Origin: a virus
Virus record (IMG/VR): IMGVR_UViG_3300049433_000130
Span: 1-36,386 of that record
DNA: 36,386 nt
Strand: one strand, 5' to 3'
Made by a program: the position numbers and the translations under genes
In this document: positions 17,118-26,989 of the stretch, in pieces
Layout of the letters: the number at the start of each line of letters is the position of its first letter
How positions within the stretch are numbered: the stretch's first letter is position 1
Notes under the pieces: generated by a model
Told to the model about the DNA's origin: nothing
What the model saw: the letters and a program-made list of their open reading frames with translations, nothing else
Database searches by the model: none

Positions 17118-17539
17118 GAGGCTTCCGCCTCTTGCGCCTTGGACGGCGACGCGACGAATGCGTACAGCCGCGCGAATGCCACCTCAAGCTGCACCGCAAC
17201 CTCGGCGGCGACCTCCTCGCGAATCACGTCCCGGAAGCGGATCGCAGCCGTCGCTTCCTCGGGCTTCGCCTGCCCTAACTCGCGCCACGCCTCGCGGCAG
17301 CGCTCCGTGCCGCAGGGGTAGTCTCCGGTGAGGTGTATCTGCTCGCGTTCCCGCTTCCGCGACCGATCAATCTCGGCCCACAAGGCGCTTCGCTCCCCGA
17401 CCCATCCCGCAGCGTCCTTGATCCGCGCTTCGAGGTTGTCGAGCAGGCAGTCGATCTCGCGCCATTGAGGGCGACCGCTTCGCTCATCGCGGATCGACGC
17501 GATCAGCGCTAGGCACGCTTCATCGGACTCGCGGTTCAT
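17114..17539 (-). CDS. Unknown protein, helical
   Basis: The protein has 141 residues. The start was set at MNRESDEACL because GGAAGG lies 7 nt upstream; longer in-frame options lack a ribosome site. It contains a charged helix (ERSALWAEIDRSRKREREQI), a C-x5-C segment (YPCGTERCREAW) and a second helical half (DVIREEVAAEVAVQLEVAFARLYAFV). It is part of the ATGA-linked leader gene string. The function is unknown. Confidence 0.55.
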   Translation of the reverse strand: MNRESDEACLALIASIRDERSGRPQWREIDCLLDNLEARIKDAAGWVGERSALWAEIDRSRKREREQIHLTGDYPCGTERCREAWRELGQAKPEEATAAIRFRDVIREEVAAEVAVQLEVAFARLYAFVASPSKAQEAEAS

Positions 17540-17612
17540 GTACCAACCTTCCATAGCGACCAAGCCGGTACCGCCCATCGCGCCGATGACTCCGTGCCTA
17601 CGCGCGTATCCA

Positions 17613-17640
17613 CGGTCGGGAGGACTCGAACCTCTACCGG
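17613..17640 (-). other. tRNA T-arm-like fragment (no complete tRNA)
   Basis: The minus strand reads AGAGG-TTCGAGT-CCTCC, a canonical TTCRANY T-loop with a near-perfect stem. It sits inside CGGT/ACCG outer pairing like a T-arm plus acceptor minihelix. Modelling a 76-nt or a long-arm tRNA fails, because no 5' acceptor strand complementary to the 3' side exists at the expected distance. It could be a tRNA remnant, a former attachment core copied from a tRNA 3' end, or chance. It lies in the 200-bp gene-poor gap 17540-17735. Confidence 0.35.
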
Positions 17641-17735
17641 CCCTATTAGCTTCGCCAATGCAAGCCTCGGCACATTGCGCGGCGGCTTATGAAAGATTCG
17701 GGAGGCGGGCAGGACGCGAGGCTTGAGCTAGACGG

Positions 17736-17930
17736 CTACGAGTTCCGGCGCTTGCGGAACTCCTTCGTCAGACGACGAAGCTCTGCCACCGCTTCGCGAC
17801 GAGCGGTCAACCACGGGCTCAAGCCCGGCGTCGCTGGAAAAAGATCGAACAGCCGAATCGTGTTGACAATCGTCCGCTCCTCCACGTCAAGGTAGTCATC
17901 GAGTATCTGGTCGCGCTCCTCCAACGTCAA
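17736..17930 (-). CDS. Small charged helical protein
   Basis: It has 64 residues, with ATGA overlap at the start. The sequence MTLEERDQILDDYLDVEERTIVNTIRLFDLFPAT... is mostly amphipathic helix with a basic end (LRRLTKEFRKRRNS). No family is recognised. It is the second gene of the leftward block. Confidence 0.55.
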   Translation of the reverse strand: MTLEERDQILDDYLDVEERTIVNTIRLFDLFPATPGLSPWLTARREAVAELRRLTKEFRKRRNS

Positions 17931-18124
17931 GAGGCTTTCGCCTCTAGCGTCACATCGAGCACAAGCGACGCGAGAATCGCACGCATGCTCTCCGGCGTCA
18001 TGTTCGAAATCACCGACCCTTCCTCGCCCGCTGCGGCATAGTACAGCAAAAACCCAACGCCCGAAGGAAAGTGCCCCTGGAGCAATCGCGCAAGCGACTT
18101 CTCCAGCTCTGCCCCTAAGTCCAT
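17927..18124 (-). CDS. First small gene of the leftward late block
   Basis: It has 65 residues from the ATG of MDLGAELEKSL. A GTG at 18187 in the same frame would add 21 residues but has no ribosome site. The protein is helical with a hydrophobic middle (FPSGVGFLLYYAAAG). It is coupled to the next gene by ATGA. Upstream, a weak minus-10-like TAAAAT (18207-18212, minus strand) may be the late promoter. The function is unknown. Confidence 0.5.
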   Translation of the reverse strand: MDLGAELEKSLARLLQGHFPSGVGFLLYYAAAGEEGSVISNMTPESMRAILASLVLDVTLEAKAS

Positions 18125-18189
18125 ACCATAAGTCTTTCGTCTCTCTTCATAGGAAATACTCGCCTTTTCGTCGAACGTCCTAAGCACAA

Positions 18190-18720
18190 AATAAATTTGG
18201 AAAGCAATTTTAGCCCGAGGTCATATCTCTATCTGTGGCCGCTGATGGGGCCGACCCGTGCGAGCGTGCGTGTGGGTACAGGCCCGCCTGCGTGCTCGCG
18301 TGCGTGCGCGCGTAAGCATACGTGTGCTGCGAGCTACCCGTGCGTGTCGCATCTTGGTGCGTAGGTGAGCAGGGGTGTGTGTCGTGTGCGCGCTGCTTGA
18401 TGCAGGGGTATCACCCTCGCCTCGCGCTTGATTCCATCCGCGCTCGCGGGTGCGCGCCTAGCGCATCGGGCGCGTGTCTTGCGTTCGGTCGCCTTCCGCG
18501 CGTCGCCCGCCTAGGGGCGGTCGTCGCTTGCGTTTCCGCGCGACGTTCGCGTTACGTTGCGTGCGCTCGCAGAAGCATGTTTGCGGTTCGACGCGGGCGG
18601 GGGCGTTATCCTATCGCGCGTGTGTAAAGATTTCCTCGTGCGCGTCGTGTGTGAGCGCGGGCGCATACATTTTTCGCGCAAAAAGCGATGCGCCGCGCGA
18701 TTCTACCATGCCCGGCAGAG
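18190..18720. other. Divergent gene-free region with alternating purine-pyrimidine bias
   Basis: About 530 bp lie between the leftward late block and the rightward early block. Open frames here are by-products of high GC and have unnatural R/C/S-rich composition. The plus strand is full of GTG/GCG/CGTG words (CGTGCGTG at several places in 18250-18350), alternating purine-pyrimidine over long stretches. A short hairpin, TTTTTCGCGCAAAAA, sits near 18670-18684. It is the expected place for divergent promoters or replication control, but no clear promoter could be picked out. Confidence 0.5.
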
Positions 18721-18771
18721 TATGCGTCAAGGGCCATAAGACTCATTGACGAGTCGGTGGCAGCATGAGAA

Positions 18772-18871
18772 GATAGTAACACGGCAGCCAGACAAACGGC
18801 AGCCAAGAAACACCGGGTCGAAAGACCCATCGACACAAGCCTGCCGAAGCGATACGATAGTAACACGGCAG
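18772..18871 (+). repeat. 16-bp direct repeat pair before the first early gene
   Basis: GATAGTAACACGGCAG occurs at 18772-18787 and again at 18856-18871, 84 bp apart. The second copy lies in a hairpin with an 8-bp perfect stem, GCCTGCCG (18839-18846) / CGGCAGGC (18866-18873). Upstream are hairpins GACTC/GAGTC (near 18740) and GGGTC-GAAA-GACCC (near 18825). The layout suggests a regulatory leader for the early transcript. Confidence 0.6.
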
Positions 18872-18891
18872 GCAAAACGAAAGGCAAGGCA

Positions 18892-19080
18892 ATGACATCG
18901 AACTCAATAGATTGCGCCTATTGCGACAAGAAAGCGGCTTACGTCGTCGTCACCGCACAGGACCCATCCTATTGGCCAGAACGTCTCCTCGGAAAAAGCT
19001 TTCGAGTTGACATCCGCAAGAATTCTCCCCCAGAAATCCCTGTCTCAAAATTATGCACTAGACATAAAGACCGCGACTAG
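18892..19080 (+). CDS. Small cysteine-rich early protein (62 aa)
   Basis: It starts MTSNSIDCAYCDKKAAYVVV and has C-x2-C near residue 8 and a late C-x2-H-type pair (KLCTRHKD), so a zinc ribbon is possible. The leader AAAGGCAAGGCA before the ATG is nearly identical to the leader at 19598-19609. The stop codon TAG is also part of the hammerhead helix II strand that follows. It is the first gene of the rightward block; the function is unknown. Confidence 0.65.
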   Translation: MTSNSIDCAYCDKKAAYVVVTAQDPSYWPERLLGKSFRVDIRKNSPPEIPVSKLCTRHKDRD

Positions 19081-19133
19081 GCCGAAACTGCCGCAAGGCA
19101 GTCCATCCGTGATACGGATGCTGATGAGGCATA
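19078..19133 (+). ncRNA. Type II hammerhead ribozyme with complete core
   Basis: All core elements are present in type II order. Helix II strand TAGGCC is followed by GAAA (19084-19087). Helix III is CTGCC-GCAA-GGCAG, with A19087 pairing T19102. C19103 is residue 17 of the GUC cleavage site. Helix I is CATCCG-TGATA-CGGATG, and the core CTGATGA is at 19121-19127. Then GGC pairs back to GCC, with two more pairs after a G/A mismatch. Predicted self-cleavage is between 19103 and 19104, in the spacer between two small early genes. Confidence 0.88.
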
Positions 19134-19170
19134 TCTCAAAAGACAAGCATACAACGAAAGAGAGTAACAA

Positions 19171-19332
19171 ATGGGCTATATGATACATAATCACCTTACT
19201 GGAGACTTCTTGGATACCAGAAGGTATGTAACCGAAAAAGAAGCGGCAGCGGCACTGAAGTTAGCGCTGAAAACAGATATGTATAAGTACTCTTCTAGTT
19301 GGGTCGTTAAGAAGTTAATGCCAAGACGCTGA
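19171..19332 (+). CDS. Small early protein (53 aa) between two ribozymes
   Basis: It starts MGYMIHNHLTGDF and ends VVKKLMPRR, preceded by GAAAGAGAG 6 nt upstream. It contains a helical stretch TEKEAAAALKLALKTDMYKY and a basic C-terminus. Cleavage by the flanking hammerheads would release an RNA of about 259 nt carrying only this gene. No family is recognised. Confidence 0.6.
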   Translation: MGYMIHNHLTGDFLDTRRYVTEKEAAAALKLALKTDMYKYSSSWVVKKLMPRR

Positions 19333-19338
19333 AACAAA

Positions 19339-19390
19339 GGTCGAAACGGCGTTCGCGCCGTCGTAGCGTAATGCGCTGCATGATTAGACC
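19339..19390 (+). ncRNA. Second type II hammerhead with A3-U8 core pair
   Basis: The fold matches the first ribozyme. Helix II GGTC (19339-19342) pairs with GACC (19387-19390). GAAA is at 19343-19346. Helix III is CGGCG-TTCG-CGCCG, with A19346 pairing T19361. C19362 is residue 17. Helix I is GTAGCG-TAATG-CGCTGC. The seven-base core reads ATGATTA instead of CTGATGA. Both changed bases, C3 to A and G8 to U, are partners in the core pair, so base pairing is kept. Activity cannot be judged from sequence. Confidence 0.72.
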
Positions 19391-19407
19391 GCCAAGAAAG
19401 GCACGCA

Positions 19408-19626
19408 ATGAGAAACGAAACTCTCGAAGACCCTGAGATTGTACGCTGGACATACGAATCAATCGACCCGTCCGACCTTCTTTGCAAGGTATGCGAGAAG
19501 ACAGAAGCGACTCATTCCTACGTCGAAGTAAACGAATACTGCGGAGAATATATCGATGAACATGTGATGGTCTGCAAGCCTTGCTTAGACCGCCAAGAAA
19601 GGCAAGGCAATGATGACCAACGCTGA
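19408..19626 (+). CDS. Small zinc-binding-type early protein (72 aa)
   Basis: It starts MRNETLEDPEIVRWTYE. It has C-x2-C (LLCKVC), a lone C in NEYCGEY, and C-x2-C (MVCKPC), a treble-clef or zinc-ribbon spacing. The leader AAGAAAGGCACGCA repeats the pattern used by the neighbours. It overlaps the next gene by 17 bp. The function is unknown. Confidence 0.65.
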   Translation: MRNETLEDPEIVRWTYESIDPSDLLCKVCEKTEATHSYVEVNEYCGEYIDEHVMVCKPCLDRQERQGNDDQR

Positions 19627-19759
19627 AAAGTTAGCAAGGAATCTGAATACCGGCAAGGATACCGTAGCGAGAATTATGGGACGCTACACAACTGCGCAAC
19701 TAATAGAAGACGAACGCTTCATACGCATACGATTCCTGAACTGGAAACTAACTTTGTAA
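19610..19759 (+). CDS. Small basic early protein (49 aa)
   Basis: It starts MMTNAEKLARNLNTGKDTVARIMGRYTT. The segment KLARNLNTGKDTVARIMGRY is compatible with a helix-turn-helix-like unit, and the protein ends FLNWKLTL. A strong leader, AAAGGCAAGGCA, precedes the ATG. A DNA-binding role is only a guess from the helix pattern and charge. Confidence 0.55.
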   Translation: MMTNAEKLARNLNTGKDTVARIMGRYTTAQLIEDERFIRIRFLNWKLTL

Positions 19760-19760
19760 T

Positions 19761-19800
19761 GATGAGGTTATGCCGCATCTGATGAGACCTACTCGAAAGG
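19761..19800 (+). other. Partial hammerhead-like element
   Basis: CTGATGA (19779-19785) is preceded by a hairpin ATGAGG-TTATG-CCGCAT (one A/G mismatch) and followed after nine bases by GAAA (19795-19798), as in a hammerhead. The residue before helix I is G (19761), which is not allowed at the cleavage site, and no helix III partner is visible. It is best seen as a decayed or chance third copy in the spacer between two early genes. Confidence 0.35.
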
Positions 19801-19810
19801 ACGGAAGACA

Positions 19811-20200
19811 ATGAGCGAATACGTGACACCAGATCACGACGCAGCCGGCAGTGGAGGAATGATGATCCGCATCATGTCTAAATCGCATCCCGACCTGGCG
19901 GAATCACTCGGAGGCGGAGGCAAGATTTGCGTCGACGCCGAGTATCCAGCCACCCCGAAGAACCTCATCCGCGCAACGAATGAGCTTGTGAGCCTGATTC
20001 ACATCAGAAAGAATTCGCTCGGGAACATCGGATGCGGGCAATCATGGATATCCATCGGAAACAAGACGTTCGAGTGCCATATGCTTCAGTTCGAGCTATT
20101 CGATAGCTACGCTCCCGATGGAGCAATCTCTCCTACGCAAAGGGCGCATAAGATTCTATCCGGCGTGTGGCAGACCGCTTCGAAACGGCCCTCCGTTTGA
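19811..20200 (+). CDS. Unknown early protein (129 aa)
   Basis: It starts MSEYVTPDHDAAGSGGMMIRIM, with AAGGACGGAAGACA upstream as ribosome site. The middle looks folded with strands (NKTFECHMLQFELFDSY). Base composition is less GC-rich than the following genes. The C-terminus runs 34 bp into the next gene. No domain is recognised. Confidence 0.6.
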   Translation: MSEYVTPDHDAAGSGGMMIRIMSKSHPDLAESLGGGGKICVDAEYPATPKNLIRATNELVSLIHIRKNSLGNIGCGQSWISIGNKTFECHMLQFELFDSYAPDGAISPTQRAHKILSGVWQTASKRPSV

Positions 20201-20409
20201 ACGCGCACCGCCGACCGAAGAGACTCTGCGCGCCAACCGCCGCAGAAAAAGTCCGTGCATGGCGCGAGGCCAACGTGGCGGATGGGCTCTGTCGGCAAGG
20301 CAAGGCGCATGCGCTGCCCTCCTGCGGTAAGCTCTGCGCGGCCTGTGCGGAGCGCCGGAACGTCCTGCGCCGCGCGCGGACTGCTCGTTTGAAAGGCGAT
20401 GCCGCCTAG
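20167..20409 (+). CDS. Small protein with one C-x5-H-x8-C-x2-C module
   Basis: It has 80 residues from GTG, overlapping the upstream gene; a shorter start at GTG 20275 would leave 44 residues including the module. The segment DGLCRQGKAHALPSCGKLCAAC matches the CCHC pattern shared with the next gene and with a minus-strand gene at 22216. A basic helix follows (ERRNVLRRARTARLK). The module probably binds one zinc ion; the partner is unknown. This frame was preferred over a competing one because the module is conserved. Confidence 0.55.
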   Translation: MADRFETALRLNAHRRPKRLCAPTAAEKVRAWREANVADGLCRQGKAHALPSCGKLCAACAERRNVLRRARTARLKGDAA

Positions 20410-20427
20410 CCTGCCGATCCTTTCGGC

Positions 20428-20961
20428 ATGCGGAGCGAACCTCTCGAATCCTACAACGCTCGCCGGGAGCGATACCGTGCGGCCGGTATCTGCACGAAGG
20501 GGCGCAGGCATGGCCCTGCCGTCAAATACGACCTCTGCGAGCCCTGCGCGACCGCGTACCTCGCTACGCAACGCAAGCTCTACGAACGACGCAAGGTAAG
20601 CGGGTTCTGTACCTCGTCGGCGTCGCATGGACGGGCAACGCACGGTCGGCTCTGCGACGTGTGCTTCGCGAAGCGAAGCGCGGAAGACAGGGCGCGACCG
20701 CCGCGCGTACGACGCGCGAAGCCGACGTGCGCATTCGGCGCATCACATGGCCCCGCCGTAGACGGCGCGTGGTGCAAGGAATGTGTCGCGCGCCGAACTC
20801 GCGCTGCCGCACGGATCGCAGCGCGAAACACGCCCGCGAAACAACCGGTTCCGCCGAAAACACAACCCGAGCGGCATAAGGAAACCGTTCGCGAGCGTAT
20901 TGAGCGCGGCGGAAACTTTGACTCGGGTAACGTGTGGGAGGCGTTGTGGCACAGAATGTGA
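20428..20961 (+). CDS. Protein with three C-x5-H-x8-C-x2-C zinc-type modules
   Basis: The protein has 177 residues. Modules lie at about residues 21-39 (ICTKGRRHGPAV...C-x2-C), 57-75 (FCTSSASHGRAT...C-x2-C) and 91-109 (TCAFGASHGPAV...C-x2-C). All have identical spacing and the core HGxAxxGxxC. They are separated by basic helical linkers of about 17 residues. The C-terminus is VWEALWHRM, similar to the end of the minus-strand single-module protein (FWAALRDLW). Tandem modules with basic linkers suggest nucleic acid binding; the exact family is not recognised. Confidence 0.65.
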   Translation: MRSEPLESYNARRERYRAAGICTKGRRHGPAVKYDLCEPCATAYLATQRKLYERRKVSGFCTSSASHGRATHGRLCDVCFAKRSAEDRARPPRVRRAKPTCAFGASHGPAVDGAWCKECVARRTRAAARIAARNTPAKQPVPPKTQPERHKETVRERIERGGNFDSGNVWEALWHRM

Positions 20962-20963
20962 GG

Positions 20964-21025
20964 CGAATGTTACGACACAATGAGCCCCTTAGCCTCACGA
21001 ATGTTACGACCCGACCGACTATAAT
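20964..21025 (+). promoter_or_regulatory. Early promoter with doubled CGAATGTTACGAC element
   Basis: The 13-bp word CGAATGTTACGAC occurs at 20964-20976 and 20998-21010, 34 bp apart. A perfect minus-10 box, TATAAT, is at 21020-21025, so the second copy covers the minus-35 position. No normal TTGACA is present, which suggests an activator site, operator or phage-specific element. It lies 46 bp before the start of the next rightward gene. Further copies of the core ATGTTACGAC are at 26408-26420 and 28819-28831. Confidence 0.65.
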
Positions 21026-21071
21026 AGAGAGAGAACCCCAATAATCACAAGGCTTTTTAAAGAGGACGATC

Positions 21072-21278
21072 ATGAGCACTGCATCTGAGTATTTGCGTGG
21101 GACCTGTCGAGCGATAGAGCGCGAAGAACTGCTAGGGGAAAACGCATATTTGCGCGAGAGCCTCGACAAGATCACGACGGCGGTACAAAGCTGCCACGAG
21201 CTTATCGACGACATCGACATCTACGAGAGATACCCGAACGTCGTAACCGCGTTTGAGAAGATCGAGGCTCTGCTATGA
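21072..21278 (+). CDS. Small coiled-coil early protein (68 aa)
   Basis: It starts MSTASEYLRGTCRAIEREELLGENAYLRE, with GAGGA in the leader. Heptad-like helices run over most of the length and it ends NVVTAFEKIEALL. It overlaps the next gene by ATGA. It has the size and shape of a small dimeric regulator or chaperone, but no family is known. Confidence 0.65.
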   Translation: MSTASEYLRGTCRAIEREELLGENAYLRESLDKITTAVQSCHELIDDIDIYERYPNVVTAFEKIEALL

Positions 21279-21559
21279 TTCGCGGCTCGCTCTATACCGA
21301 ATCAGACGACCTCAAGAACGTCTGGCTCCGGCTCACAAGCGGAAAGTACGCATTGCCGGAGCCGTATCTTCTCCTCGACCTCAAAAGGACCGACTTAACC
21401 ATCTACCTTGCCCCGGAAGACCTACCACGGATTGCGGGCATGTTACGGCTCGCTGCCGAAAAAATCGAGGCTCTAATTCCCCAGAACGGCACCAATCATG
21501 AAGCGACCTTACAGCCAAACGTCGTCCTATTTCCGAGCGAAGTCGCAAGAGCGGCGTGA
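21275..21559 (+). CDS. Unknown early protein (94 aa)
   Basis: It starts MIRGSLYTESDDLKNVWLRLTSG in ATGA overlap. The sequence looks like an alpha/beta domain (KRTDLTIYLAPEDLPRIAGMLRLAAEKIEAL). It overlaps the following zinc-ribbon-type gene by 62 bp in another frame. The C-terminal 25 residues may be unstructured. The function is unknown. Confidence 0.6.
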   Translation: MIRGSLYTESDDLKNVWLRLTSGKYALPEPYLLLDLKRTDLTIYLAPEDLPRIAGMLRLAAEKIEALIPQNGTNHEATLQPNVVLFPSEVARAA

Positions 21560-26048: not shown

Positions 26049-26404
26049 CTCCTAGCGCCGGAAACCTCGCCGTTCAGGGCGAGGAGGAGGCGCGGTTCTG
26101 TGGTATAGCGGAGGACCCGTCTTGCGACGAGCCCTCCCTTAGCCCTTGAGGGCCTTGTGACGGAGCATCCTTGCTCTCTCCCCTCGACAATGTTCGATTG
26201 CAGCGTTGTGTCCACAAGCGTTTCGTGCGTACCCTGTTGCTTGTCTGCCCCGTGGACTTCGAGAGGCCGGAACTGAGGAAGCATCCCGGCGTCGGTCTTG
26301 AACTTCAATCGAACGTAGTTCCTTTCAGAACTGAGTCTGGTCAACCTGAGCTTTCACAAGCTCCGGCTTTTAGGCCGGGGTAGTTGACGGCAGTCCTCCT
26401 AGCG
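26049..26404. repeat. 9-bp direct repeats flanking the structured RNA
   Basis: CTCCTAGCG is at 26049-26057 and 26396-26404 (CGCTAGGAG on the minus strand). The right copy precedes the RNA; the left copy is the ribosome site of the 58-residue membrane protein. Loss of the segment between them would leave the ATGTTACGAC motif directly upstream of that ribosome site. Confidence 0.6.
26060..26390 (-). ncRNA. Large structured RNA, HEARO/IscB omega-RNA-like
   Basis: Read leftward it starts GTCAACTACCCCGGCC. Helix GTCAAC/GTTGAC encloses CCGGC-CTAAAA-GCCGG and AGCTT/AAGCT. Then come AGTTC-TGAAAG-GAACT, a 9-bp long-range pair GTTCGATTG (26306-26314) / CAATCGAAC (26192-26200), GAGCA/TGCTC, a 12-bp stem capped by a GCAA tetraloop (26110-26137), and CCTCGCC/GGCGAGG. 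The 5' architecture and roughly 300-nt size recall HEARO RNAs that guide the HNH nuclease IscB. No iscB is adjacent. The structure is clear; the class is inferred. Confidence 0.6.
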
Positions 26405-26599: not shown

Positions 26600-26989
26600 T
26601 CAAAACGCGAACGACTCTTCGTCGTAGAGCGACGCTTGTGCGGGCGATCCGGCCTCCTGGCCGGACTCGCCCTTCTTGTCCAACATTTGCATTGTGTCGA
26701 TCACTACCTCGACAGCTTTGCGCTTCACGCCTTCTTTATCTTCGTAGCTGCGAATAACAAGGCGTCCTTCGACGAGGACGCTCATTCCCTTTTTGAGATA
26801 CTGCTCGCATATTTCTGCGAGCTTCTCCCACGCGGAAATATCAACGAACATCGTCTCGTCGTTGTTCTTTGTCTTGCGATTGACGGCGATTCCGAACTTG
26901 CAGACTTGCGATCCCGAAGGAATAAACTTGCTCTCCGGGTCCTTCGTCAAATTTCCGACGAGAATAATGCGGTTGTAGTTACCTGGCAT
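26600..26989 (-). CDS. ssb: Single-stranded DNA-binding protein
   Basis: It has 129 residues with a standard OB fold: NRIILVGNLTKDPESKF (residues 5-21), VCKFGIAVNR, MFVDISAWEKLAE and GMSVLVEGRLVIRSY. The C-terminus YDEESFAF keeps an acidic, aromatic tip close to the bacterial DDDIPF type used to recruit partners. GAGGGGG lies 8 nt upstream. It coats single strands in replication and recombination. Confidence 0.95.
   Translation of the reverse strand: MPGNYNRIILVGNLTKDPESKFIPSGSQVCKFGIAVNRKTKNNDETMFVDISAWEKLAEICEQYLKKGMSVLVEGRLVIRSYEDKEGVKRKAVEVVIDTMQMLDKKGESGQEAGSPAQASLYDEESFAF

Follow-up and report, generated by a model that had tools for sequence, protein, structure and literature searches.

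Hammerheads and genes of the locus

The stretch of DNA analysed here, hereafter referred to as the window, comprises the 36,386 nucleotides of the virus record IMGVR_UViG_3300049433_000130. Genes for a phage virion structural protein, the major head protein, the portal, the terminase and the primase/helicase are located on its minus strand, and short plus-strand genes cluster at about 18.9-20.2 kb. Two type II hammerhead ribozymes, HHR1 and, about 260 nt downstream of it, HHR2, lie among these short genes as follows:

18892-19080, plus strand: 62-aa ORF, the TAG stop codon of which abuts HHR1
19080-19131, plus strand: type II hammerhead HHR1
19171-19332, plus strand: 53-aa ORF between HHR1 and HHR2, with a TGA stop codon 6 nt before HHR2
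19339-19390, plus strand: type II hammerhead HHR2, core AUGAUUA (A3-U8)
19408-19626, plus strand: 72-aa ORF with two CxxC pairs, its ATG 17 nt after HHR2

The product of ORF 19408-19626 gave a weak zinc-finger match, below the Pfam cut-off. HHR1 carries the canonical core CUGAUGA (19121-19127), with predicted cleavage at 19103/19104, and RNAfold gives the hammerhead fold for it; a 4-bp pseudoknot between its loop I and its tail (GAUA/UAUC) is possible. From 5' to 3', HHR2 is made up of the following segments, the predicted cut falling within UC^GUAGCG:

19339-19342, plus strand: helix II 5' strand GGUC, pairing with GACC at 19387-19390 (helix II 99.3% paired, three of its four pairs covarying)
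19343-19346, plus strand: G12 A13 A14 A15.1, invariant in an alignment of 38 pentaloop-class copies
19346-19361, plus strand: helix III ACGGCG-UUCG-CGCCGU, from sequence, RNAfold and covariation
19362, plus strand: C17, with cleavage predicted at 19362/19363 on the basis of the hammerhead consensus; the GUC does not vary in the alignment
19363-19379, plus strand: helix I GUAGCG-UAAUG-CGCUGC, of the pentaloop subclass, from RNAfold and covariation
19380-19386, plus strand: core AUGAUUA with A3 at 19380 and U8 at 19385, from the sequence and its relatives
19387-19390, plus strand: helix II 3' strand GACC

HHR2 thus has the type II layout of three helices, open at helix II, with the GAAA, the NUH site and the CUGANGA strand in this order. 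It carries the consensus residues G12 A13 A14, A15.1-U16.1, C17, U4 G5 A6 U7 A9 and G10.1-C11.1 and departs from the consensus core at positions 3 and 8 only, where the Watson-Crick pair expected of type II hammerheads is present as A3-U8. In the alignment, the columns of the GAAA, the cleavage triplet and the other consensus residues vary little or not at all. The hammerhead fold is both the minimum free energy and the centroid structure in RNAfold (-23 kcal/mol, z = -2.4). In a covariance model built from 38 hammerheads, which include HHR1 and HHR2 and make their match partly one by construction, HHR2 scores 61.5 bits (E 7.5e-19) and HHR1 59.6 bits, the next match in the window reaching 12.9 bits. 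The preliminary description had regarded HHR2 as a second hammerhead with intact fold, cleavage-site C and helix II pairing, in which the C3-G8 pair of the seven-base core was replaced by A3-U8; the sequence, RNAfold and the covariance model bear this out, and when both strands of the window were scanned blindly for the motif, HHR2 and the upstream, canonical HHR1 were the sole sites returned.

A strict structural finder, run over 2.2 Mb of collected loci, gave 147 matches, and the reversed sequence yielded none; the identity of HHR2 as a hammerhead is far beyond chance. Short hairpins are frequent in GC-rich intergenic DNA, but the covariance score, the empty reversed controls, the strict covariation and the complete HHR1 adjoining HHR2 leave a negligible probability for chance hairpins or a terminator in place of a ribozyme. 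Neither HHR1 nor HHR2 was reported by Rfam at the gathering threshold (37 bits, RF02276); at a relaxed threshold HHR1 alone appeared, with 32.2 bits against the cut-off of 37, and HHR2 gave no match. As scored, HHR2 is thus no listed member of RF02276, although its fold recurs in relatives. HHR2 shares with the known type II hammerheads (RF02276; Perreault et al. 2011, PMC3088659) the opening at helix II, the GAAA, the GUC site and a phage or prophage setting, often with several copies per locus at gene borders, and differs from RF02276 in having A3-U8 for C3-G8 and in scoring below the gathering cut-off. Copies of the A3-U8 type escape annotation models in which C3 and G8 are rewarded.

Covariation of the 3-8 pair among relatives

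All virus contigs were scanned with helix II fixed as GUC/GAC, helices I and III left free and every non-canonical combination allowed at positions 3 and 8, after an earlier, looser A3-U8 pattern had returned at least 100 stretches, mostly unfolded chance matches. Within the slice set by the particular helix II sequences, U7 and GUC demanded in these scans, for which the frequencies are valid, both positions are changed in 25 stretches. These gave 36 folded hammerheads, 27 with U3-A8 and nine with A3-U8, counted as instances, several of which come from closely related contigs; the two other copies found do not fold, and all 36 folded double changes are Watson-Crick pairs. Position 3 or 8 is singly changed in six stretches, four of them folded: C3/A8 (L175), A3/G8 (L177) and the U3.G8 wobbles of L178 and L179. 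The corresponding scan with helix II as GCC/GGC yielded eight folded double changes, each of them U3-A8. A genome collection, used as background, contained 51 matches to the double-change pattern, one of which folds (U3-A8, in an Oceanobacillus profundus record). The unfolded matches of the same patterns are mostly non-Watson-Crick or G-C at 3/8, being rich in C8 and G3-C8, and their combinations differ from those of the folded matches (Fisher p about 2e-22). When copies were made distinct by the trimmed ribozyme, 66 C-G, 24 U-A, five A-U and six others were obtained. In a separate count, positions 3 and 8 form a Watson-Crick pair in 118 of 123 distinct cores, compared with a mean of 72 and a maximum of 85 after shuffling.

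The structural subclass of HHR2 was scanned separately, with positions 3 and 8 free and a six-bp helix I with a UAAYG loop required. The 58 stretches found, together with the window, hold 57 C-G, four U-A and one A-U pair and no mismatch (62/62 Watson-Crick). In the alignment of 38 pentaloop-class copies, 99.7% of the cells are paired, with 169 double changes, and pairing falls to 29-43% when the partner is slid as a control; one of the 38 copies, L177, is unpaired at 3-8. Position 3-8 thus changes almost only with the pair kept, which argues strongly that pairing and not base identity is selected. Decay is disfavoured, since it would give single or mismatched changes at 3 and 8, and these are nearly absent among the folded copies. 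The proposal made earlier, that the double change reflects selection on pairing and not decay, is supported by the folded doubles, the few folded singles and the mismatch-free subclass alike, and the paired cells and double changes of the alignment speak for structural constraint in the relatives, as opposed to unpaired changes.

A search for homologues with the same A-U pair was also successful. A3-U8 recurs in unrelated contigs: besides the window, it is carried by a group of seven related contigs (L034, L047, L064, L077, L082, L085 and L089) and by L118. Natural U3-A8 cores were reported in 2011 by Perreault et al., in a paper (PMC3088659) that also cites in vitro work in which paired 3-8 exchanges were active, and the covariation of 3-8 as U3-A8 is therefore already published. 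Those copies resemble HHR2 in that both sides of the pair are changed and Watson-Crick pairing is kept; U3-A8 is, however, a pyrimidine-purine pair like C-G, whereas the A3-U8 of HHR2 is reversed to purine-pyrimidine. Natural A3-U8 was not found in the literature searched, which is no proof of its absence. A3-U8 extends the natural repertoire by a purine-pyrimidine pair, at a position that has long been considered almost invariant. Przybilski and Hammann in 2007 reportedly exchanged C3-G8 for other Watson-Crick pairs in engineered type III ribozymes, while HHR2 is a natural type II copy; all Watson-Crick pairs are said to have been active in the Arabidopsis ribozyme and one viroid ribozyme to have preferred pyrimidine-3/purine-8, a preference that may make A3-U8 slower on some scaffolds. 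The earlier statement that G8 takes part in catalysis needs a qualifier, as a 2024 structure paper (PMC11300833) assigns the role of G8 to its ribose 2'-OH. This group is present on U8 too, which would make U8 compatible with catalysis.

Some occurrences of U3-A8 may be recorded here. Four hammerheads in a single contig (L254/G010) all carry U3-A8, as if the array had switched its pair. A U3-A8 type II hammerhead is present in both L205 (Oceanobacillus profundus DSM 18246) and L103, the stretch being listed also as a virus record, and the cultured bacterium provides a culturable source of such a hammerhead for assays.

Gene boundaries and the probable role of HHR2

The hammerheads occupy the borders between genes, mostly next to a stop codon and a short distance ahead of the following start: in 79 of 101 distinct hammerheads an ORF stop ends between -10 and +3 nt relative to helix II, compared with 259 of 1931 control GAAA sites. 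The related array G001 (L118, IMGVR_UViG_3300033551_000003, positions 43500-64814, loci L270 and L271) comprises 29 type II hammerheads, all on the same strand, over about 17 kb, most of which lie between consecutive ORFs. A Shine-Dalgarno sequence and a start codon follow within 80 nt after 27 of the 29, and an adjacent ORF stop, by the criteria of this analysis, was found for 16. Its cores include CUGAUGA, CUGAGGA, CCGAUGA (U4C), UUGAAAA, UUGAAGA and AUGAUUA, three having an extra A after the core; helix I is similar in several of the copies with the cores CUGAUGA, UUGAAAA, UUGAAGA and AUGAUUA. Clusters in which several hammerheads flank single genes are described for prophages of C. scindens, A. 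caulinodans and A. tumefaciens in PMC3088659, according to which such clusters cleave polycistronic RNA in vitro, one of them (A. tumefaciens) also in E. coli, and Perreault et al. proposed transcript processing as their role. The window differs from these clusters in having two intact copies between genes of 50-70 aa, and the G001 array in having 29. A 2017 review (PMC6155905) regards the role of prokaryotic hammerheads as an open question tied to phages. Multi-hammerhead arrays, above all G001, represent natural paralogous ribozyme series in which the cores vary within a single transcript unit, and such arrays make this function directly testable.

HHR2, a natural relative of the phage type II hammerheads, is probably still self-cleaving between the cistrons of a presumed rightward early transcript. 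A3-U8 keeps the pair that scaffolds the active site. Given its position between two cistrons, past one stop codon and ahead of the next start codon, a cut at 19362/19363 would split the message in two. Of the two mRNAs, the upstream one would then terminate with the helix III hairpin and a 2',3'-cyclic phosphate, and the downstream one would carry a 5'-OH ahead of the helix I hairpin, the outcome being two messages that are separately stable and separately translated; a stabilising effect of the new mRNA ends is proposed here by the present analysis. As proposed for the prophage clusters, hammerheads of this kind most likely cut the polycistronic early transcript between cistrons.

HHR2 could instead have retained the fold but be inactive or cleave very slowly, having lost C3-G8 and kept its hairpins only as an mRNA-end or spacer structure. 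Such a reading, though unlikely, stays alive because hammerhead sites do decay in this phage, as suggested by two partial copies of the 3' half and leader of HHR2, about 200 nt apart and each before an ORF:

19582-19604, plus strand: near-copy (96%) of the 3' end and leader of HHR2, inside the terminal part of ORF 19408-19626 and directly ahead of ORF 19610
19780-19802, plus strand: 70% copy, a possible remnant of the 3' half of a third hammerhead (CTGATGAGACC), before ORF 19811, with the 5' half missing

Both are probably relics of lost hammerheads or a copied leader, and the second, which scores only 12.7 bits (E 0.07) in the covariance model, resembles a broken third hammerhead. Decayed copies look unlike HHR2, in which the other core positions and all three helices are intact. 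The rarity of A3-U8, one in 62 in the structural subclass, would suit an inactive copy, and some phage hammerhead-like RNAs were inactive when tested in 2011 (PMC3088659); the near absence among folded copies of the single or mismatched changes that decay would leave, and the constancy of the A3-U8 copies of the L034 group, which differ at 0-2 of 61 positions and in the helix III loop only, argue against it. A further point against activity concerns tertiary structure. A pseudoknot of at least 5 bp between loop I and the tail is found in 55 of 67 distinct copies of the long-loop class, against 18% after tail shuffling; it is not visible in the UNANG pentaloop class that includes HHR2.

A comparably low probability is given to cleavage acting as a translation or decay switch and not as simple cistron separation. 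A ribosome terminating at the stop codon beside helix II would cover the 5' half of the ribozyme, or cleavage would free the leader of the next gene. Many copies do have a stop codon abutting or overlapping helix II, and in G001 the pseudoknot strand runs nearly straight into the Shine-Dalgarno sequence; such spacing, however, would equally result from the compactness of phage genomes and is what plain punctuation would produce, and neither ligand-binding nor an alternative fold was found. Cleavage that separates cistrons is preferred here. It is conceivable, but rather doubtful, that phage hammerheads are a general punctuation of early operons, with as many as about 30 in one genome and the cleavage rate at each boundary tuned by core identity. 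If so, tuning would act through the identity of the 3-8 pair and through further core positions (C-G, U-A, U.G, A-U, U4C, insertions), and A3-U8 and other core variants would be tuned and not decayed.

Origin of A3-U8 and neighbouring elements

The A3-U8 copies of the L034 group and of L118 belong to the long-loop class, and that of the window to the pentaloop class. Helix I is similar in the long-loop copies, and A3-U8 is therefore counted as having arisen at least twice, possibly three times. The copy in L118 has an atypical context, without an adjacent stop or Shine-Dalgarno sequence. Contigs of the L034 group have kept the ribozyme together with a leader of about 28 nt, although the gene downstream is exchanged, L034 and L047 having a different gene at this place from L064, L077, L082, L085 and L089; the gene exchange seems to break right behind the hammerhead.

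Close relatives of the window were sought in several ways. Virus contigs searched with the neighbouring protein P0001 gave no close relatives, and BLAST of window positions 17500-21500 and of a stretch of L270 against phage records gave no match. A terminase search returned one relative, L001/G002, with 89% terminase identity; this closest phage found has no hammerheads and hence none homologous at the HHR2 locus.

With regard to the origin of A3-U8, as distinct from its function, U8 may have been copied from the downstream repeat TGCTTAGACCGCCAAGAAAGGCA (19582-19604), A3 then compensating. The repeat has 96% identity over 23 nt and spans U8, A9, helix II and the leader, and its coding reading CLDRQ matches CLTRR at the end of the homologous gene in L001, so that the downstream copy could be the older one. 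This route is nevertheless rather improbable, for the copying may have run in the opposite direction, and L177, a related pentaloop copy with A3.G8, offers a path by point mutation, from C-G through A.G to A-U.

Other elements of the window may be mentioned. A 24-nt direct repeat (88%) at 18767-18790 and 18851-18874, upstream of the hammerhead operon, contains GATAGTAACACGGCAG, which is resembled by the string GATAGTCACA in L001; the repeats are possibly tandem early promoters. A HEARO RNA (RF02033, 111.5 bits), of the guide-RNA class of IscB-type nucleases, lies on the minus strand at 26173-26388; the minus-strand ORFs tested near it gave no nuclease match, and an SSB gene is located at 26600-26989.
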